Source: a bacterium (lineage in GTDB: Bacteria > CSSED10-310 > JAJRTK01). From it: a stretch of DNA of 14,672 nucleotides. The stretch covers positions 1 to 14,672 of the forward strand of contig JAJRTK010000157.1 in NCBI GenBank assembly GCA_024278345.1. Direction: 5' to 3'. The notes beneath the pieces are model-generated. The model was not told where the DNA came from. It saw nothing but the letters and a program-made list of their open reading frames with translations, and did not search any database. The position numbers were made by a program, and so were the translations under genes. The number at the start of each line of letters is the position of its first letter. The stretch's first letter is position 1. Below are positions 1 to 12,319 of the stretch, in pieces.

Positions 1-487
1 CAACATCGAGGAATTCAAGACGTTTCTGGAAAACCTTTTCGTCAAGTATCCCGACAGGACGCTGAAAATCGGCGACTCCTGGGAAGAAAAACGGGAGCTC
101 CAGAACGCCGATCCCACCAGCGGCCTCCAGATCGCCCAGACCACGGGTATCCGCTACAAGGTGAAGGATTTCGAGGAAGACATGCGCCGCAAGCGGGATA
201 TCGTGCTCCTGGAAGTCCAGATGACGGTGGATTAAGAGTTGGGCGTCCTTTCAGAAGATCCTGGCGGCACCATCGTCCAGACCCGAGGGCAAGGGGCGGG
301 TCACGGGAAGAACCGGGGAGTCATCCGCGTTGACGCCAAGACAGGGCAACTGGTCCGGTACGAGTTGGGGACTCAGCTCAACAACGATCTCACCGTCGAT
401 GAGCACCAGCTTGTTGGCGCGACGATCCGCACCAAGTATGCAACGGAGTTTTCCAGCACCACCACGACGGTGCTCAAAGCAGAGTAG
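1..487 (+). pseudogene. 3' part of a DUF6263-like gene, interrupted by an in-frame TAA
   Basis: The gene begins before the window. Reading from base 2, the frame runs NIEEFKTFLENLF...KIGDSWEE...VQMTVD, meets TAA at 233-235, and continues open in the same frame as ELGVLSEDPGG...KNRGVIRVDAKTGQLVRYEL...TTTVLKAE to TAG at 485-487. Both halves read as one protein: a 'GDSW' segment, then a 'G.G..GV.RVDAKTGQLV' beta segment, then a Thr-rich last strand. This is the pattern I associate from memory with DUF6263 proteins, envelope proteins of unknown function. A TAT or TAC (Tyr) to TAA change would explain the break. A restart at TTG 239 is possible but has no good ribosome binding site. The downstream phosphatase gene starts 7 bases after the final stop, so the two were probably co-transcribed. 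The family name is tentative; the single in-frame stop is directly visible. Confidence 0.6.
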
Positions 488-494
488 CCATGGC

Positions 495-3400
495 ATGAGC
501 AGAGCCCTCCCATCGCTGGCGTCCTCTTCGGGCCGGTGGCCCTGGATCTCCCTTCTGTTTCCATTCCTCTGTTTGGCGCTCCTTCCGGCGGCGGTTTTCG
601 GGGCGAGCTGGAAGGCGACGGACTACCTTCCTTATCCCCATTATGCTCGGGGCGTACCTTCCTTGGCCTTGATCGACGGGGCAGTTCCATGGATCCAGGA
701 GATCCTTTATCCGGTCCATTCCCTTCCGACCCTTCTTCTGCCCGGAGACGAGCTGCGGATCATTGTGGACGTGGGGCGAGACCCGGCGACAACCAATCTG
801 GAAGTGCTGGCGCTGCGGCTCCGGTCCCATAGGCAGGTGCTGGAAAAGGTCATGGATTTGACCAGTGTGGCGACGGTGGCGGAGGACGGGGACTGGGGGT
901 TGTTTTTGATTTCGGCGACCTTGCCATCGACGGATGTCCCCTACGATCTTTACGACCTGGAGATCGAGCTTGGCGACGGCACGGTGACGGGGCCGCTGGA
1001 TTGCGCGGCGCCGCCGGCGGGAGGTTGGTGCGACCGTCAGCCCAGGTCGGTGAAGATCCTGGACCGGTTTCGGCAAGATTTCCGGTTCATTCATCTTTCG
1101 GACGTTCACCAGGGCGACCCAAGGGGAAGCACGAAGAAGGATCATTTTCCTCAGGAGATCGCCGACGGCATCGTAGCGACGTTGAACTTTTTGCAACCGG
1201 AATTCGTCATCATCTCCGGGGACCTGGCTTTTGGCGATGCCTACTTCGAGGAGTTCCCGGCGGCGATGGAAACGTTTGATCGTGCGCAGTTCGCAACCTT
1301 CAACGTGCCGGGTAACCACGATTACCAGCACAACGTCCTGGGTCCGCTTCCCATCAACGACGGATTCGAGTATTACCGGTCGTTTTTCGGGCCTCCCAAC
1401 TACTCGTTCGACTACGGTTCGCTCCATTTCGTGGGCTTGAACTCCATGGATCGCCCCAAAGCGGATCGGGAGATCGGCATCGACGGCAGCGGCGGGTTGG
1501 CCACGGAGTTCTGGGGCGGGATCGATCTTTCGGCCGCGGGGGGCGGGGGTTCGCTCGCCCACGATCAGCTCGCCTGGCTGGAGACCGATCTCGTAAAAAA
1601 CGCGGCGGACGGCTCGAAGAGCGAGATCTTCATCTACCTGCACCACGATCCGACGAAGGACTACACTCCCAACTTGGAGTCCCACGATATCTGGAACTTC
1701 GACGATCCCGAATATGCGGAGTCCTCGGATCGAATCCGGCAGCTCATCGCCCAGTACGGCATCGGTTGGGTGCTGGTGGGCCACGATCATTACGACCTTG
1801 TCCACGAGGTCCTGGGTGCGAAGTTCGTCCAGACGACAACGACGGCCAGCGAACGGAGGTTCGATTCTCATTGGGGTTACCGCCTTTTCGATGTAAAAGG
1901 CTCCAAAGTCGCGAAGTTCAACTATGGAGCGTCGCCCAATTCGATTCCCTACGGCTACCACGAAGATCCCGACGACCCCGATCAGCGGACGCCCTACCTG
2001 TCCGTTACGTTCAACGGGGGGAACGATGGATCGACCGGATCGGAGACAGCGGTGATCAAGAACGAGCTTCAGGAGCCCATGACCGGGCGGCTGGAGTTCT
2101 TCTTGTGGGGACTGGGGAATCAGGCTTCCCGCGGGGAGATCGTCCAAGAGTCCGTACTGCCGGGAGGCGTACGGGTCCTTGTGGAAGTGGAGGCCCCGGC
2201 GCAGGAGACAATCCAGGTTCGCGTCCAGCCAGACACAGCCTTCCCAGCGGCGCCCACGGGGTTGGAGGCTACGGTGAACGAAGATTCCATCCGGCTGCGG
2301 TGGGACCCCATCATGGACACGGACCTGGCCGCCTACCGCCTTGTGGTCACTCCTGCAATCAGGAGTGGAGATAGCCGCGCCGACGAAGTGATCATCGAGC
2401 TGCCGGTGGGCGACCTGCCGGACCCGGCGCATCCGTCGCACACGGTCACGGGATTGACACCAGGCAGCCAGTACAACGTCTTCCTCACGGCTCTGGATCA
2501 GGGGGGCCGAGAAAGCGGGGCCATCCTGGCGGGGCCGCTTTTCCTCCACGCGCCACCGCCGGTGCCCACGAATTTTTCGGGTGTGGCGGGCGATCAGTTC
2601 ATCGACGTCCGCTTCGTTCCCGTAGGGAGGCGGGCGGTCTCGTGGCGTCTCTATTACGGATCTGGAAACGGCGGCCTCCAGGGGAATGACGCCACCGAAG
2701 GCGCATCTCCCATCGATTTGAGTTCTACGAGCTTCCGCCTCTCGGGCCTGAGCAACGGCCAAGTCTATGGCCTTGCAATCTCCTCCGTCGATTCCCAAGC
2801 TGGGGAGAGCGATCTTTCGCCGGTGATCAACGTGGTGCCGAACGCGTTCCCCGGGGCAGATCTGGACGGGGATGGCTTCGCCACGGCCATTGACCGAACC
2901 GTACTGCTCCGGACCCAGGCCGGGCTGGCGGCCCTGGACGGTTCCCTCAAGCCCACCTCCGATCTAAACCGGGACGGAAAGATCGATCTTGGCGATGTTG
3001 TGCTGGCGGATCGGCTGGTGCGGGGGCTGAACACGCCTCCGCTGGTCTTCGTGATCTCAAATCCCACGGTGTTGCAAGCGAGCGTCGAAACGCTCTTCGA
3101 TGCGTCGTCAACGATGGATCGGGAAGAGGTAGCCTCGGAGCTGGAATTCCGGTTTGACTTCGAGGGCGACGGGAGCTTCAGCGCCTGGAGCTCCGAGCCG
3201 GTGGGCCGCCATCTTTACGGCGACGACGCGGCTCCGCGCCAGGTGGTCATCCAGGCGCGTGACGGGCATGGTGGCGTGGGCCAGCGGGTCTTGCGGTTCC
3301 TTCCCAGAGTGGCCCAGCGGGTTTTTCTCATCGATATCGACGGCAGCCGCCGCGATGTCTTCTATCGTTGGATCTCGGGCACGGCGGGAGGGCACAGAGC

Positions 3401-5498
3401 CCTCCGAGACGACATTCTGGGGAGTATCTCCTTCGGCGGGACCAACCTGGACGACGCCAGTTTTTCTGGCTCCCGGGCATTGGGAGCAAACTTTACGCGG
3501 GCCCTCTTTCCCACAGTCACCTTCACGAACCAGGCGGCGATCCCCACGGGTCAGTATGCGCGGACCCACGGGATTGCCGGCAACGAGTTCTTCGACCGGG
3601 ACGAGCTGTTCGAGCGGTCTTTCGTTTCCGGGGACGCCCAGGCGGTCTACACTGAAGGCAAGGCCCTGGCGACCCTGTGGGCTGGAGCGCGGACCATCTA
3701 CCAAGATGCGGGTAGCCACGGTTTTTCCTCGACGGTGATCTTCCACCAATATCCCAAAGAGTCCGATGGATACGTCTCCCAGACCATCGCTGAGTTCGTG
3801 GCGTTCCTACTTGACGGAGCAGAGAAATACGATCAACTCACCCTTTACCGGGGAGTGGAAGAGCTGGAGCGGATGGATTTTCCTCCGCTTTCCTTCCTCT
3901 ATCTGGCCGGTCTCGATCACCGTTCCCATGCGGAAGGAATCGAGTCGCAGGATCTTCACATCGAGGTTGTCGATGGGCTCATGGATCTGTTCGTCAACGG
4001 GGGCACGCTTCAGTATCCGGACATCACTTTCCCGGCATCGGAAGCTCCCATCGATTTTCCCGGGTTGAAAAATCTGCCCGATCCCACTACGGCCGATCCC
4101 AACGATTCAATCTTCGACAATTCGATCTTCTGCTTCACGGCGGATCACGGGCAGATCAACTACAGTCTTGATAGCGCAGACATCGTGTCGATCAACGATG
4201 TCACGGACACGATCCATGAGTATTTCGATCCCGAGGCGGTCCTGGAAGGCCACACGGAGACGGAACGCGGCCCCCACGGGCTCAGAATCCGGACGGGGTT
4301 GAAGGATTCCGAGACTCTGGACGCGGCGGATATCGTGCTGGAGATCAACGGTGTTTCCATGTTCCTCTACGTCAAGAATCGGCTTCGAGGCACCTGGAAG
4401 GGGTATCCCGACTTTGACAAGGATGTTCTCCCCCTCGCACGGGCCTTCGCCATGGCAAACGTGGACGGGCGCCTCGACACGCTCCCGGACGGATCCATTG
4501 GAGACATCTTGATCAGGCGCACCGCCAAGAGCGGAGAGCTGGAATATTCCGAGGGATACATCGGCTATCGCTGGAACGGCCAGACCGATGAATTGATTGA
4601 GCTGGAAGACTATTTCACGCCAGAATTCGCCAAGGCGACCAACATTATAGACCATCTCCGTGGCCTGGAATCCCGAAGGAGCGGCGACATTATTCTGACT
4701 TCCGGCCGATCGCTGGAGATTGCCGATACGGATCTCTCCGGAACCCAGTTCAGCCTTCCCTTCTCCTTTCTCTCCAGCGCCGGCCAGCATGGCAACATCA
4801 CCCCCGGCGAAAGCCTGATTCCCCAGGTTTGCGGCGGCCCGCCCGTGGAAAGACTCGGCTTGGCTAGGACCGAGCCCCAGAGTTCCCAGATCGATTTCGC
4901 GCCCACGGCGGCCCAGTTTCTTGGCATCAACATGGATGAGGCCGACGGAACCGGCTACCTCTACAAGTTTGACACGGCGCCATCCGGCGTTCCGCAGGGT
5001 GCCGTCCTGTTGGGGAGCGCGTCCACCAAGCCGGGGGAAACGGTCACGCTTCCCGTCCGTCTCCTTGGCGCCAAAGGCGCTGCCGCAGTGCGATTGAACA
5101 TGGCCTTCGACGGGCAAACCCTCACTTTGAGTGGGGCAAGTGGTCGCCAGCTCAGCGGACAGGCGAACCTCGTGGAGATTGCCCTGAAAAAGATGGGGTC
5201 AACCGGTCAACTGGCTGCTCTATTCGACGAGCTTCAGCTCCCCGACGAAGCGGTGGCGAACATCCGTTTTGCGGTTTCCCGGGACGCTGCACCGGGAACC
5301 TATTTCATCGAGATCGACATGGTGGAGATCGCGGACAGCAAAGGCACCAGCGGCAAAGTGGGCGGATTCGGCGGAATTGTCCAGATCACTCCGCCACCAA
5401 CCGTCCCCAGCCGCAATCTCCCGCTTCCCCTTCTTTGGGCAGTGATCCTCGCCTTCTTCCTTGCGTGCCGCCCGCGGCGGGCAGTCCAAGAACCGTGA
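495..5498 (+). CDS. exported dual-phosphatase protein: calcineurin-like plus NPP/alkaline-phosphatase-like domains with dockerin- and cohesin-like modules
   Basis: 1667 residues. ATG 495 is chosen because it starts a clear signal peptide (hydrophobic core about 15-33, ending AAVFGA); the frame is open further upstream but overlaps the preceding gene. Order of parts: beta-rich N-domain (about 45-190). Calcineurin-like metallophosphoesterase (about 195-480) with D203-V-H205, G242-D243, G273-N-H-D276, H383-H384-D385 and G429-H-D-H432. Beta domain (about 480-580). Two fibronectin III domains (about 583-682 and 688-782). Dockerin-like pair of calcium loops (D789-L-D-G-D-G and D823-L-N-R-D-G-K-I-D). 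PKD-like domain (about 855-940). Alkaline-phosphatase-superfamily/NPP domain (about 943-1480) with metal ligand D949, PTVTFTN with likely nucleophile T1009 and N1012, D1141-x3-H1145, D1217-H1218 and H1432. Cohesin-like beta domain (about 1499-1630). Transmembrane segment 1641-1657 followed by CRPRR. Both catalytic sets look intact, so two phosphoester hydrolase activities outside the cytoplasm are inferred; the substrate is unknown. Confidence 0.85.
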   Translation: MSRALPSLASSSGRWPWISLLFPFLCLALLPAAVFGASWKATDYLPYPHYARGVPSLALIDGAVPWIQEILYPVHSLPTLLLPGDELRIIVDVGRDPATTNLEVLALRLRSHRQVLEKVMDLTSVATVAEDGDWGLFLISATLPSTDVPYDLYDLEIELGDGTVTGPLDCAAPPAGGWCDRQPRSVKILDRFRQDFRFIHLSDVHQGDPRGSTKKDHFPQEIADGIVATLNFLQPEFVIISGDLAFGDAYFEEFPAAMETFDRAQFATFNVPGNHDYQHNVLGPLPINDGFEYYRSFFGPPNYSFDYGSLHFVGLNSMDRPKADREIGIDGSGGLATEFWGGIDLSAAGGGGSLAHDQLAWLETDLVKNAADGSKSEIFIYLHHDPTKDYTPNLESHDIWNFDDPEYAESSDRIRQLIAQYGIGWVLVGHDHYDLVHEVLGAKFVQTTTTASERRFDSHWGYRLFDVKGSKVAKFNYGASPNSIPYGYHEDPDDPDQRTPYLSVTFNGGNDGSTGSETAVIKNELQEPMTGRLEFFLWGLGNQASRGEIVQESVLPGGVRVLVEVEAPAQETIQVRVQPDTAFPAAPTGLEATVNEDSIRLRWDPIMDTDLAAYRLVVTPAIRSGDSRADEVIIELPVGDLPDPAHPSHTVTGLTPGSQYNVFLTALDQGGRESGAILAGPLFLHAPPPVPTNFSGVAGDQFIDVRFVPVGRRAVSWRLYYGSGNGGLQGNDATEGASPIDLSSTSFRLSGLSNGQVYGLAISSVDSQAGESDLSPVINVVPNAFPGADLDGDGFATAIDRTVLLRTQAGLAALDGSLKPTSDLNRDGKIDLGDVVLADRLVRGLNTPPLVFVISNPTVLQASVETLFDASSTMDREEVASELEFRFDFEGDGSFSAWSSEPVGRHLYGDDAAPRQVVIQARDGHGGVGQRVLRFLPRVAQRVFLIDIDGSRRDVFYRWISGTAGGHRALRDDILGSISFGGTNLDDASFSGSRALGANFTRALFPTVTFTNQAAIPTGQYARTHGIAGNEFFDRDELFERSFVSGDAQAVYTEGKALATLWAGARTIYQDAGSHGFSSTVIFHQYPKESDGYVSQTIAEFVAFLLDGAEKYDQLTLYRGVEELERMDFPPLSFLYLAGLDHRSHAEGIESQDLHIEVVDGLMDLFVNGGTLQYPDITFPASEAPIDFPGLKNLPDPTTADPNDSIFDNSIFCFTADHGQINYSLDSADIVSINDVTDTIHEYFDPEAVLEGHTETERGPHGLRIRTGLKDSETLDAADIVLEINGVSMFLYVKNRLRGTWKGYPDFDKDVLPLARAFAMANVDGRLDTLPDGSIGDILIRRTAKSGELEYSEGYIGYRWNGQTDELIELEDYFTPEFAKATNIIDHLRGLESRRSGDIILTSGRSLEIADTDLSGTQFSLPFSFLSSAGQHGNITPGESLIPQVCGGPPVERLGLARTEPQSSQIDFAPTAAQFLGINMDEADGTGYLYKFDTAPSGVPQGAVLLGSASTKPGETVTLPVRLLGAKGAAAVRLNMAFDGQTLTLSGASGRQLSGQANLVEIALKKMGSTGQLAALFDELQLPDEAVANIRFAVSRDAAPGTYFIEIDMVEIADSKGTSGKVGGFGGIVQITPPPTVPSRNLPLPLLWAVILAFFLACRPRRAVQEP

Positions 5499-6604
5499 GC
5501 CCGCGGGTTCTCATGGAAGGCTCGGCTCTCCTGGGCGAGCTCACCGGTGTGGGGATCTATGTCCGGGAGCTCGCCCTGGCCCTGAGCCACGAAATGGAGG
5601 TCCGCCTCTTCCTTGCCTCCCTCAAAGATTCCATCCCGCCCTGGCTAAGGGAAGAGTGCCGTGGCCCCAAGGCCCCTTTGCTCCTTCACCGGCGCCTGCC
5701 GGCGCGGTGCCTTCTGGCAGCATGGCATACTTTGCGCATCCCCGGGATGGAGTGGATCGCCGGAACCGGCCACGACCTGGTCCACAGCCCCAACTACACG
5801 GTCCTCCCCACGCGATTTCCACTGGTCGTGACCCTCCACGATCTCTATTTCCTTCGGAACCCCACTGCGGGAACAGAGTGGGGAGGTCGGTTTTTCGCCC
5901 GGAACCTCCGACGCCATCGGCACCGGGTGACGCGATTTATCGCGGTCTCTGAGCTGACGCGGAGGGATGCCATTGAGCTTCTTGGTTTGGAGCCCCACCG
6001 CGTCAGCGTCGTACTGGAGGCACCGAGGCAAGACTTCCTGGCCCCCGTCTCTCCCGAGGCGGAAGAGCATGCCTGGAATCAGTTGGACTTCCCCCGGGAC
6101 TATCTTTTAAGCTACGGCAACGACGATCCCAGGAAAAACCGCTCGGGGCTGCTAGCAGCTTACAAGATTCTACGGCAGATCGATCCCGACTCGCCGCCGC
6201 TGGTCCTTGTGGGCGGCCAGCCCCCGCCAACCCAGCCTGGCCTCGTCTGGCGCCCCTATCTTTCGGCGGTAGAGCTTCGCTCGGCTCTCCAGAGAGCCCT
6301 ACTGCTGGTCTACCCATCCCACTACGAGGGTTTTGGGCTCCCGGTTGCGGAAGCGCTGGCTTTGGGGACGCCCGTGGCAGCCGCGGCGACGGGGGCGATA
6401 CCCGAGATCGCCCGTGACGCCTATATCGAACTCGATCCGGCGTCGGCGGAACAGATGGCCCATGCCCTTCGGGGGCTCTACGGCGACTCCGCACTCCTCC
6501 ACCGGCTGCGCGACCTGGGGCCGCGGCACGCCGCGAAGCTCTCCTGGAAACGGGCCGCTCGGGAGACCATGGCCGTGTACCGCGCAGCGCTGGAGGATCG
6601 CTGA
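5495..6604 (+). CDS. GT4-family (GT-B fold) glycosyltransferase
   Basis: 369 residues from GTG 5495, which overlaps the phosphatase stop as GTGA. No strong Shine-Dalgarno is visible, so translation is probably coupled to the gene before. ATG 5513 (MEGSALLGELTGVGIY) is a possible alternative start, and the open frame reaches back to 5435. The N-terminal Rossmann half has the glycine-rich GELTGVGIYVREL acceptor loop and later VVTLHDLYFLRNP. The C-terminal half begins around YLLSYGNDDPRKN and carries the E-x7-E nucleotide-sugar motif at E278-GFGLPVA-E286, followed by LALGTPVAAAATGAIPE. These are hallmarks of retaining GT4 enzymes such as mannosyl- or glucosyltransferases. It has no signal peptide and should act at the cytoplasmic face on a lipid or polysaccharide acceptor. 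Donor and acceptor cannot be read from sequence. Pairing with an exported phosphatase is unusual and may be only an operon accident. Confidence 0.88.
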   Translation: MSPRVLMEGSALLGELTGVGIYVRELALALSHEMEVRLFLASLKDSIPPWLREECRGPKAPLLLHRRLPARCLLAAWHTLRIPGMEWIAGTGHDLVHSPNYTVLPTRFPLVVTLHDLYFLRNPTAGTEWGGRFFARNLRRHRHRVTRFIAVSELTRRDAIELLGLEPHRVSVVLEAPRQDFLAPVSPEAEEHAWNQLDFPRDYLLSYGNDDPRKNRSGLLAAYKILRQIDPDSPPLVLVGGQPPPTQPGLVWRPYLSAVELRSALQRALLLVYPSHYEGFGLPVAEALALGTPVAAAATGAIPEIARDAYIELDPASAEQMAHALRGLYGDSALLHRLRDLGPRHAAKLSWKRAARETMAVYRAALEDR

Positions 6605-8095: not shown

Positions 8096-9724
8096 CTACC
8101 AGGGAGACCAGCTCGCGAGTTTTTTACCAAAGCTCTTGATGGCGCTTCCAGCTCTCTCGACAGCCTTGCCGGCGGTATTCACGACGGCCTTGGCCGCGCT
8201 TCCCGCTGCTTTGGCGGCGGAAGAAGCGGCATCTCTTACGGTTCTGGTAGCGCGATCAACGGTTTTCTCGACGGCTCGTTCGATCTTTTGCCCCGCAACT
8301 TTAGCGTCGTTCAGGGTCAACTTGCCATCGCCATCCGTGTCAAGGGCCTTTTTCGCGGCATCCCCCACTTGATCTACCACGCCCTCGGCCATCTTTCCAA
8401 GCTGTTTGACGTCAACCTCGACCTTCCCGCTCAATCCGGCGCCATAACCGACCGCCGCACCGGCTCCCCAGCTCAGGCTGAGTTTTCCATTCTTGTAGCC
8501 AGCTTCAACATGGGCCTCCGCACCGGCGCCTGCCCAAGCCTCACCAGTGACGGAAGCGCTGAAGGGGCCGACACCGACTTTGCCCGTGGCCGTGGCCTTG
8601 GCTCCGGCAAAGGCTCCCGCCTTGGCCTGGACAACAGCCGTGGGAGGATTGCCGGTAACCTTCGCGGTTGCATTGGCATAGGCATAGGCTCCGGCCTCGA
8701 CCTTGCCGGTGACCGATGCATTGGCCTTGACATCGACGCCCCCGATTTTGACAAGGGGCTTGGACTCGACCTTGGCTGTGCCTTCCACCGACGCGCTCAC
8801 GCCCACATAGGCATTGGCCGTCGCCTCCAGGCCGTTGGCGCTCAAGCTGACTTTCCCATCAGCGGAAGCCTTGGCCGACGCCTGGGCTTTATAGCTTGCC
8901 TCGGCCGTCCCGTATTTGCCTGTCGTCTTCGCGGAATCGCCATAAGAGGCGGTCACACCGACCCCTGCCTGGCCCTGGGCACTGGCGCCACTGAGGCCAA
9001 CCTGGTAGCTCCCCGAAGCGCTGGTATCCAAGGTCACCTTGCCCTTGCCATCCTTGGTCTGGGCCAGCACCTTGCTGCCGCCGGTCTTGGCTTCTCCCTT
9101 GGCAATGGTGGTATCGATGCCCAGCTTCTTCGCGGCGGCATCGAGCTGCTGGAGCTTGGCACCGGCCTGGGAAAGCTTGCCACCGGCGCTGCTCAGGCGA
9201 TCCTGGGTTTTCTTGGCAACAGCATATTCCCGGCCACCACTGCGGGAGTCTTTGATCTTCATGTCGTGGGGCTTGCCCTGCTGTGCCCCGGAAATTCCGC
9301 CACTGACCCAGGCATTGCCCTTGCCACTACTTGTCTTCTTGGAAGCCGATGCCAAGCTGCCGTCCCACCCGGACAGTTTCTTGTTCACCATCTTCTTGGC
9401 TTCGGTCTTCGCCCTGTCCACAAGACCGCGAGCGGTTTTCAAAGCCGCCTGGCGGTCGGGTGAAAAGAGCTTCACGAATTCATTGCTTTTGAGAAGCTTT
9501 TCGCCCTTCTTCCGAGCTGCCTGGAGAAGGCCCTCCAGCTTCTTAAATTTGTTGACATCGCCCGTCTTGAACGAATCCCTCAGCTTGGCGGCGGCTTTGT
9601 GGGCGGCTTTTTGCACGGTGACGGCCGTCTTGGTGCCCTTTGCCTTGTGGTGGTGATGCACCGACGCCTTCTTGATGGCGGTCTTGTACTGTGGTCGTTT
9701 AGTTTGCCCTTTGATCTTCGGCAT
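8096..9724 (-). CDS. Gly/Ala-rich beta-repeat protein with basic His-rich N-terminus and one EF-hand; function unknown
   Basis: 542 residues from ATG 9724, chosen because GGAGGAA sits before it at proper spacing and the protein then begins MPKIKGQTKRPQYKTAIKKA. The frame is open to 9988 but the added residues look non-coding. Parts: a very basic N-terminus with H23-H26 (SVHHHHKAKG) and Lys/Ala-rich helices to about 118; a Ser/Gly-rich linker; a helix near 172-202; then about 230-440 of short beta repeats of roughly 24-28 residues rich in Ala, Gly and Val (for example AGAFAGAKATATGKVGVG, EAWAGAGAEAHVEAGY). A single EF-hand loop D462-T-D-G-D-G-K-L-T-L-N-D473 follows, then Ala-rich amphipathic helices resembling LEA proteins to SWSPW. 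There is no signal peptide. Similar Ala/Gly repeat stretches occur, from memory, in some polymorphic toxins and secreted EF-hand proteins, but no toxin domain is visible. Function not assigned. Confidence 0.75.
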   Translation of the reverse strand: MPKIKGQTKRPQYKTAIKKASVHHHHKAKGTKTAVTVQKAAHKAAAKLRDSFKTGDVNKFKKLEGLLQAARKKGEKLLKSNEFVKLFSPDRQAALKTARGLVDRAKTEAKKMVNKKLSGWDGSLASASKKTSSGKGNAWVSGGISGAQQGKPHDMKIKDSRSGGREYAVAKKTQDRLSSAGGKLSQAGAKLQQLDAAAKKLGIDTTIAKGEAKTGGSKVLAQTKDGKGKVTLDTSASGSYQVGLSGASAQGQAGVGVTASYGDSAKTTGKYGTAEASYKAQASAKASADGKVSLSANGLEATANAYVGVSASVEGTAKVESKPLVKIGGVDVKANASVTGKVEAGAYAYANATAKVTGNPPTAVVQAKAGAFAGAKATATGKVGVGPFSASVTGEAWAGAGAEAHVEAGYKNGKLSLSWGAGAAVGYGAGLSGKVEVDVKQLGKMAEGVVDQVGDAAKKALDTDGDGKLTLNDAKVAGQKIERAVEKTVDRATRTVRDAASSAAKAAGSAAKAVVNTAGKAVERAGSAIKSFGKKLASWSPW

Positions 9725-10078: not shown

Positions 10079-12319
10079 CTAGACCGTCGGCTCAGGCAAG
10101 AAAGGCAAATTGGCAAAGTGGACCCTTTCGGGGGCCAAAAGGCCGTGGAGCAGGATCGACAACACGAAGTATCCCTTCATCTCCAAGATGTGCTCATCCA
10201 AGGGAATCCCAACGATCCGCTTGGCGATGACGCGGTGCTCTTCCTCCAGAAGATCGACCTCCACGACGCCGTCGGAAAAGGTCGATACGCCCGATTCCAT
10301 ATTCCATACAAGCTGGATCTCCTGCCCGGAGATTCGCCCGAAAATCGTCCTCCGCGGACCCTCTACCGCCAACGCAAAGCCATCGTGTTCCGACCATTGA
10401 TGGAGACTTTCGGGGCTGGAGAAGATCCGGGGCTTCTCCAGATAGGGACCACCATCCTCGGGGCAGAAGATGTCGCAGTTCCCGCACTCGTTGCAAAAAT
10501 CGGCATAGTTGGCGATTTGGTGCGATTTTTCCACCTTGAAACGACCACGCGGAACCGCGACAAGGTCGGGTCCCTGAACAGCGTAGCTCTCGAAGCTGAC
10601 GTCGATCTCCCGGACAGTGAAGGCGAAATTGGCGTCATTTGGGCAAACCGGGATGCACTTGTCGCAGTTGATGCAATCCCACAGGAAGAGCTTGGACCCA
10701 ATCTTTTTGGGGAGGGCACGGTTTTTCGCCGCCGAATAGCGTGGGTCCACGACGAGCTCCGGCAGGATCTTCTCTGTGTTTAGGACCCTGGCTTCGTAGA
10801 GGCAAAGACGGTAGATCTTCGCAGCCAACGCCGAAAACCTGGCGGAAGAGCGTTCAGTTCCGCTGTCTCTGGCCCCCGCAGCCGCAATCCCTTCCTCCAG
10901 CGCCTGGAAAACCGAGAGCGCGCCGCGCTGTTTCAGAGCCTCCAGGAGATCGAGCCTCCAGTTCCCGGCTGCGGCTTCGAGCCGCGCGAGCTCCACGGCC
11001 TCCTTCTCCAGCAAGTTCCCACTGCGAAAGCTCTCTTCGAGACAGTGGCAAGCGCGCTCCAGCGCCTCCAGCCCGCAGCCTTCCGACAAAATGACATAGT
11101 CCTCCACCGTGCGGACACCAAGCTGGGTCATCCGCGTTTCCAGACGCTTCAGATATCGAGGCAGCCGGCCATAGCCGCCCGGCCGCAACAGGTCCGTGCA
11201 GGTTGTCACCGGCAAGAGGCCCAGTGCTAACGTGCGGGGGAAGTTCTGGTTATCAACTCCCGCGGAGAAGGAAATCTCTAGCTCTCCCCCAAACTCTCGC
11301 CGAAACTCTCCCAAGAGCTGCGTGGCCAAAACATGGAGCGGTTGCCCGGAGAGGTACATCACTCTTTCCTTGGCGGGAAAGAAGGTCTTGTGATTTTGAA
11401 CCACAAGTGTGTTCGTCAGCTTGATTCCAAAGCCTCGTCCGTGCTGGCGCGCCGTTTTTTGGAGAGTCCGAACAATCTCTACAGCCTGCTCCCAGCGGAG
11501 GTCACTCTGGAAAGCGTGAGGATCCAGCTCGATGCCGGTATAGCCAAGCCCGTCGTGGAGGATCTGGCGAACCCGCTCGTAGCCAAGGAGGGTTGGGTTA
11601 AACTTCACGATGGTATCGGTGCCCACATCGGTCAACAGGGTGTGGGCAATCCCCTCGATCTCCGTGGCTGGGCAGCCGTGGAACGTGGAAAGAGTCACGC
11701 TGGACGAAACCCGCGGGTCGAAATCAAGATCCCGAAAGCGGCGGAAGGGGCCGTCCAGCTCCATCCGCAGCTCGTCAATGACCGCGGAAGCATCGAGCAT
11801 CCCGTCGATGAAACGCCGAACTTTCGGCGTGTTGATCCCTTTGAGGTCGTAACCGACGGACATGTCGAAAATTGTGTCTCCACCGGCCTTCTCAAGGATC
11901 TCCCAAACTGGCGTCTCCCGGAGGATCCGGATGAGCATCCAGGCAGTCACGTATTCCCGCAAAGACTGGGAAACTCGTAACTCCTGGCTCCACTCCACAT
12001 TGAAGCCCACGTTCTGCATGTCAATGCAGGGCCTGGAAATATCCAGCGCATCCAGCACCTGAACCGTCTTGAGCTCGATAATTCGTGAGCCGGCCAGCCA
12101 GGCAAGGACGATGTTCTGTACGAGTTGGTTGTGGGGGCCGGCAGCGGGCCCCAAGGGAGTGGATGCCGGCCGCCCGTGAAACAGAACGCTAAGATCGACC
12201 GCCTGGCTGCCAGAATAAAACTTGCGAACGGGAAGATCGTAGACCGCCGACTGGCGCTGGAGCTCGAGTAGAATGCGCTTGAGGTGTAGACGCAGCGGCA
12301 GGGGACGGAATTCGGCCAT
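10079..12319 (-). CDS. YgfK-like iron-sulfur oxidoreductase (putative selenate reductase family), short form lacking the NADPH/FAD domain
   Basis: 746 residues from ATG 12319, with AGGAGG 8 bases upstream. The N-terminal 1-415 follows E. coli YgfK closely from memory: TPLGPAAGPHNQL (54-66), IELKTVQ (81-87), FDMSVGYDLKGI (151-162), VTLSTFHGCPATEIE (208-222), VKFNPTLLGYERVR (238-251), GFGIKLTNTL (296-305), TDLLRPGGYGRL (375-386). This is a dihydroorotate-dehydrogenase-like flavin barrel. The C-terminal part has two 4Fe-4S sites, C549-x2-C-x2-C-x3-C559-P and C609-x2-C-x2-C-x3-C619-P, then the YgfK-type tail. E. coli YgfK is about 1030 residues because a GltD-like NAD(P)H/FAD domain sits between these parts; here only about 130 mostly helical residues (416-545) fill that place. 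Electrons probably come from a ferredoxin or a separate partner. The substrate is unproven; selenate reduction is only a label of the family. Confidence 0.85.
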   Translation of the reverse strand: MAEFRPLPLRLHLKRILLELQRQSAVYDLPVRKFYSGSQAVDLSVLFHGRPASTPLGPAAGPHNQLVQNIVLAWLAGSRIIELKTVQVLDALDISRPCIDMQNVGFNVEWSQELRVSQSLREYVTAWMLIRILRETPVWEILEKAGGDTIFDMSVGYDLKGINTPKVRRFIDGMLDASAVIDELRMELDGPFRRFRDLDFDPRVSSSVTLSTFHGCPATEIEGIAHTLLTDVGTDTIVKFNPTLLGYERVRQILHDGLGYTGIELDPHAFQSDLRWEQAVEIVRTLQKTARQHGRGFGIKLTNTLVVQNHKTFFPAKERVMYLSGQPLHVLATQLLGEFRREFGGELEISFSAGVDNQNFPRTLALGLLPVTTCTDLLRPGGYGRLPRYLKRLETRMTQLGVRTVEDYVILSEGCGLEALERACHCLEESFRSGNLLEKEAVELARLEAAAGNWRLDLLEALKQRGALSVFQALEEGIAAAGARDSGTERSSARFSALAAKIYRLCLYEARVLNTEKILPELVVDPRYSAAKNRALPKKIGSKLFLWDCINCDKCIPVCPNDANFAFTVREIDVSFESYAVQGPDLVAVPRGRFKVEKSHQIANYADFCNECGNCDIFCPEDGGPYLEKPRIFSSPESLHQWSEHDGFALAVEGPRRTIFGRISGQEIQLVWNMESGVSTFSDGVVEVDLLEEEHRVIAKRIVGIPLDEHILEMKGYFVLSILLHGLLAPERVHFANLPFLPEPTV

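Follow-up and report, generated by a model that had tools for sequence, protein, structure and literature searches.

Two unrelated folds that hydrolyse phosphoesters appear to be joined in one gene product encoded in the window, i.e., the whole 14,672-nucleotide stretch of DNA that was analysed. This raises the question of whether the joining is genuine and old, and what a protein carrying both folds would do for the cell. Calcineurin-like enzymes hydrolyse their substrates by way of a dimetal-bound water and NPP/alkaline phosphatase (NPP/AP) enzymes use a nucleophilic Thr, and the initial annotation proposed that a complete enzyme of each kind resides in the same exported polypeptide.

Layout of the 1667-residue protein

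The reading frame is located on the + strand at window positions 495–5498, with an ATG at 495 and a stop codon at 5496–5498, and specifies 1667 aa. From the N- to the C-terminus it comprises a signal peptide-like start, an N-terminal beta domain, the Metallophos domain, a C-terminal beta domain, two fibronectin type III (fn3)-like repeats, a dockerin-like segment, a PKD-like segment, the NPP/AP-superfamily domain, a cohesin, and a hydrophobic C-terminal tail (Table 1). The span originally assigned to the pair of enzymes, 1095–4800, covers both catalytic parts from the codon of D203 to that of H1432 but not the whole protein. The linkers, the dockerin-like segment, the cohesin and the C-terminal tail are parts that the initial annotation had left unmentioned.

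Table 1. Window coordinates of the features recognised in the 1667-residue protein.
Feature	Residues	Window position	Strand	Basis
Signal peptide-like N-terminus	1–36	495..602	+	MSRALPSLASSSGRWPWISLLFPFLCLALLPAAVFG: basic n-region, hydrophobic core, small residues at end; judged by eye
N-terminal beta domain	about 64–190	684..1064	+	Strands in AlphaFold model; aligned in L004, L065, L068 and other relatives
Calcineurin-like metallophosphoesterase domain	196–433	1080..1793	+	PF00149, E 1.1e-7; GpdQ fold match; residues kept in relative
Putative dimetal ligand codons	D203, H205, D243, N274, H383, H430, H432	1101, 1107, 1221, 1314, 1641, 1782, 1788		
C-terminal beta domain of metallophosphoesterase half	about 500–578	1992..2228	+	Model strands, pLDDT mostly >80; aligned in most relatives
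Two fibronectin type III-like repeats	about 586–682, 686–783	2250..2843	+	PF00041, E 8.6e-11 for first (586–672); two stretches in relative
Dockerin type I-like segment	Ca-binding-type loops D789–D800, D823–D834	2856..3029	+	PF00404 (789–835), sub-threshold; loops by eye
PKD-like segment	846–935	3030..3299	+	PF00801 in relative at same place, E 8.9e-8; 42% identity
NPP/AP-superfamily domain	about 940–1490	3312..4964	+	PF01663, E 2.8e-18; SPAP/ENPP5/PafA folds; 10 relatives
NPP/AP codons	D949, T1009 (nucleophile), N1030, D1141, H1145, D1217, H1218, H1432	3339, 3519, 3582, 3915, 3927, 4143, 4146, 4788		
Cohesin domain	1504–1615	5004..5339	+	PF00963, E 4.7e-7; relative E 2.2e-9
C-terminal hydrophobic stretch, then basic residues	1639–1667	5409..5495	+	LPLPLLWAVILAFFLACRPRRAVQEP; judged by eye

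Both halves were matched to their own superfamily by Pfam above the curated cut-off, the N-terminal half by PF00149 (32.9 vs 21.5 bits; 46.2 bits in a full-length relative described below) and the C-terminal half by PF01663 over residues 943–1155 (67.1 vs 23 bits). All catalytic-motif residues previously listed are present at their positions, namely D203/H205, D243, N274/H275, H383/H384, and H430/H432 in the N-terminal half, where the PF00149 ligand motifs DxH, GD, GNH(D), H, and GHxH are complete, and D949, T1009, D1141, H1145, D1217, H1218, and H1432 in the C-terminal half. We take these to be the dimetal-water and the Thr-nucleophile catalytic residues of calcineurin-like and NPP/AP enzymes, respectively. 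The AlphaFold models of the metallophosphoesterase half (mean pLDDT 77.7, pTM 0.85, alignment of 20 sequences) and of the NPP/AP half (mean pLDDT 81.5, pTM 0.87, alignment of 10 sequences) each resemble solved structures of the respective superfamily, and a PDB sequence search with the family profiles of both halves returned the same groups as the fold matches. By Pfam match, residue check and fold match, two distinct superfamilies with full sets of catalytic residues are thus found on one chain, as had been proposed. The polypeptide had also been called exported; the signal peptide-like start can be seen by eye, and export itself is what such a start would predict.

Conservation and age of the fusion

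In a search of 60 genomes one full-length relative was found, which aligns over residues 30–1650 with 43% identity. It comes from the same phylum as the window, although from a different family, and corresponds to Candidatus Schekmanbacteria contig JACPHN010000135.1 in the public collection. Its domain order matches, including the fn3, dockerin-like, PKD, and cohesin parts and the hydrophobic C-terminal tail, and every catalytic residue of both halves is kept. Because this independent genome carries the same full-length protein, an assembly artefact or a chance fusion is ruled out and the fusion is not unique to the window. A candidate third member (L024) proved to be the same DNA as the Schekmanbacteria locus (100% over 8064 bases) and was rejected, so that the full-length fusion is known from two members, both from draft assemblies. 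In the tree of each half the two fusion proteins pair with 100% support, the path lengths being 1.28 and 1.19. The near-equal divergence and the pairing of both halves therefore fit a single ancestral fusion that has been kept since.

Identity to the relative is 56% in the metallophosphoesterase domain and 48% in the NPP/AP domain, compared with 26–42% elsewhere, and this concentration of conservation in the two enzyme domains was counted in favor of a hydrolase with two working enzymes. It also bears on the idea that the protein holds a remnant, i.e., that a single site is active and that the other half serves binding or structure. Metal ligands have been lost in some relatives of the metallophosphoesterase module, such as L065, which lacks the DxH motif (the 1360 aa of its long frame are not a real protein length, since masked bases, X, lie inside the frame). 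For the fusion a single active site is nevertheless improbable, as the ligands of both sites are all kept in two proteins that are just 43% identical and the two enzyme domains show the highest identity.

The non-catalytic modules are shared by both fusion proteins as well. The cohesin scored above the Pfam cut-off (PF00963, 30.5 vs 24.1 bits; 38.1 bits in the relative), whereas the dockerin-like segment stayed below it (PF00404, 18.1 vs 22.9 bits; 19.5 bits in the relative), and both patterns of its Ca-loops were recognized by eye. The presence of cohesin and dockerin-like modules on one chain in both relatives could mean that the protein belongs to an extracellular complex held together by dockerin and cohesin, and that assembly and not the enzyme pair is the point. 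We consider this a poor bet, given the sub-threshold dockerin matches, the position of the cohesin among the least conserved parts (27% identity), and the occurrence of dockerin/cohesin modules in bacteria without cellulosomes. The C-terminal stretch is a possible membrane anchor or sorting tail; the last 52 residues gave no match to the NCBIfam sorting domains PEP-CTERM, IPTL-CTERM, or MYXO-CTERM at E up to 10. Anchoring by this tail, as well as any role for the cohesin or the dockerin-like segment, would be predicted from such resemblances.

The fusion appears to be rare. Searches with the full-length profile, with either half and with the protein itself revealed no third fusion among about 960 sampled genomes, where in the larger genome sets only two or three candidates were scored per genome and a fusion could have been missed. 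When long reading frames from the matches were scanned with the profiles of both halves, both were present only in the two known proteins. Exact peptide patterns, a narrow probe, matched only the Schekmanbacteria genome among 84,980 species, and plasmids gave partial matches only and no full fusion. The claim that the architecture is not a described family holds insofar as no Pfam or NCBIfam model spans the combination; on the literature side it extends to titles and abstracts, mostly outside subscription journals, in which no Metallophos and NPP/AP fusion was described. Each enzyme is of a well-known kind, and the combination is a rare, new pairing of known families.

Apart from each other the halves are widespread. 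The N-terminal beta domain, which is also present in stand-alone metallophosphoesterase relatives, occurs together with the metallophosphoesterase in many exported-looking proteins; some of these have nothing further, and others carry additional modules, for example PKD repeats, beta-propeller-like repeats or a MYXO-CTERM tail. Similarly, the NPP/AP half is found in several genomes as stand-alone proteins of about 430–620 residues, and two genomes (G126 and G263) encode both enzyme kinds, each as a protein of its own and not on the same contig. G126 also has a tandem pair of metallophosphoesterase genes from the family of the N-terminal half (L050:1369-3988). The same metallophosphoesterase module is followed by many repeat domains in a protein of 2223 aa (L067:5455-12123).

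Catalytic type of the two halves

The nearest solved fold of the metallophosphoesterase half is the GpdQ/class III phosphodiesterase group, where Lmo2642 (Z 23.7) is level with GpdQ (Z 23.9; 225 residues superposed at an rmsd of 2.4) and Rv0805 follows at 22.5. GpdQ and Rv0805 are diesterases.

In the NPP/AP half T1009 and D949, D1141, H1145, D1217, H1218, and H1432 are invariant across 10 diverse relatives, which corresponds to the nucleophile (Thr) and the metal ligands (D, D, H, D, H, H) of the NPP-type AP superfamily. The fold matches SPAP (Z 28.9), ENPP5 (28.2), and PafA (28.1) were tied, while the best PDB match of the family profile was PafA (E 3e-23). A Lys/Arg pair is the mark of monoesterases. 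In the alignment the nucleophile Thr and an Asn (N1030) are common to the NPP/AP half and to PafA-like proteins of other genomes. PDB entry 5too lists Thr79, Asn100, Lys162, and Arg164 in its title as residues of the PafA active site; when aligned with PafA relatives, in a gapped and only moderately certain region, Lys162 falls on Y1086 and Arg164 on K1088. The Lys162/Arg164-type pair of PafA and PhoK is thus not found in the NPP/AP half, and Lys occupies the Lys162 position in 0 of 10 aligned members of its family. The NCBIfam PafA model NF042991, whose cut-off is 650 bits, scored it at 13.7 bits. The alignment suggests that the NPP/AP half leans to diesterase activity, with moderate certainty because the aligned region is gapped. 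As PafA Arg164 is aligned with K1088, this half may have some monoesterase ability.

As GpdQ and Rv0805 are the nearest folds of one half and the PafA Lys is replaced by Y1086 in the other, two diesterase-type sites would, judging from alignments and models, be at least as likely as a diesterase combined with a monoesterase. For this reason "phosphoesterase" is a safer name than "phosphatase" for the protein. The stepwise order formerly suggested, in which a diesterase is followed by a monoesterase, was not borne out. The substrates put forward with it, nucleotides, phospholipids or teichoic-like polymers, would be candidates only.

Genomic context

A DUF6263-like frame (window 2–487, +; PF19777 E 1.1e-5, just under the cut-off) ends 7 bases before the ATG of the phosphoesterase gene and contains an in-frame TAA at 233–235; it may be a pseudogene, reflect a sequencing error or consist of two frames. 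Downstream, the ATG of a GT4-type glycosyltransferase gene (5513–6604, +) is found about 15 bases past the stop codon, and the two genes are probably co-transcribed. As the neighbors of the relative differ, with S-adenosylhomocysteine hydrolase on one side, the neighborhood is not conserved. Further away, on the opposite strand, a frame of 540 aa (8096–9718, -) is rich in Ala, Gly, and Lys, belongs to no Pfam or NCBIfam family and shows only, around residue 460, a loop that weakly resembles an EF-hand. A protein of 746 aa (10079–12319, -) matches the first about 400 positions of YgfK, a putative selenate reductase subunit (E 1.3e-136), and has 4Fe-4S motifs, its score being well below the equivalog cut-off.

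A promoter scan of the window found none and terminators were no more numerous than in shuffles. No match to the Pho-box consensus, which may not be this organism's own, was found in the window, nor was any phosphate gene recognized among the neighbors by Pfam or NCBIfam. Phosphate scavenging is therefore unsupported by context.

Proposed function

We favor, with somewhat better than even confidence, the view that the protein is a secreted or surface-anchored organophosphate hydrolase or scavenger with two complementary phosphodiesterase-type sites. The exported chain would carry a GpdQ-like dimetal metallophosphoesterase on its N-terminal side and an NPP/PafA-like AP-superfamily enzyme on its C-terminal side, kept apart by the fn3, dockerin-like, and PKD-like spacers. 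At the first site a metal-bound water would be activated for direct attack, and at the second Thr1009 would act as the nucleophile and form a covalent phospho-enzyme. Together they may break down a wider range of phosphodiesters and related esters outside the membrane, from which the cell would gain phosphate, carbon or nucleosides. The activity of both sites, their substrates and any cooperation between them are predicted here from sequence and models.

It is conceivable, though rather unlikely, that the sites act in sequence on one substrate, one half opening a diester and the other stripping the resulting monoester to free phosphate. The presence of two sites of differing chemistry on one chain would suit such a pair, SPAP and PafA, which are monoesterases, lie no further from the NPP/AP half in fold than NPPs do, and K1088 provides a positive residue at the position of PafA Arg164. 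On the other hand, the position of Lys162 is held by Tyr1086 and lacks Lys throughout the aligned family, both halves have diesterase neighbors, and about 360 spacer residues separate them, so that channeling is not suggested. It is tempting to speculate further that the protein represents a new bifunctional extracellular phosphoesterase class, ancestral in a little-studied phylum, whose dimetal and Thr-nucleophile hydrolases work one after the other on a single polymer or lipid headgroup; this must be regarded as a long shot of about the same order.

Neither site would be surprising by itself until activity is demonstrated. What sets the protein apart is that two convergent solutions to phosphoester hydrolysis have been kept on one exported chain across divergence to 43% identity. 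Provided that both sites work, the protein would serve as a natural model of the way in which extracellular organophosphate breakdown is divided between two chemistries in uncultured bacteria, and the two sites can be tested separately by single mutations.

Comparison with known phosphoesterases

The N-terminal half has its catalytic fold and ligand motifs in common with GpdQ and Rv0805. These are however short enzymes, whereas here N- and C-terminal beta domains and a second enzyme are attached, and identity is only 17–21% (23% to the Rv0805 core). Stand-alone exported metallophosphoesterases such as L004 (770 aa) likewise have the metallophosphoesterase set between the same N- and C-terminal beta domains, but are without the NPP/AP half; L004 bears a MYXO-CTERM tail in addition to a PKD-like domain. 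The UshA/CpdB-type two-part periplasmic nucleotidases are similar in that an exported metallophosphoesterase is joined to a second domain; in these, however, the second domain binds substrate and there is no second, unrelated active site.

The C-terminal half resembles the NPP/ENPP enzymes (ENPP5, ENPP7, Xac NPP; Z 27–28) in that it belongs to PF01663 and combines a Thr nucleophile with the D, D, H, D, H, H ligand set. It differs from them in length (about 550 vs 380 aa), in sequence (11–20% identity) and in its C-terminal part, which is PafA-like ("SGDI ... HG ... IP"). With the alkaline phosphatases PafA and SPAP/PhoK it shares the fold to the same degree, but it has Tyr1086 in place of PafA Lys162 and scores far below the NF042991 cut-off.
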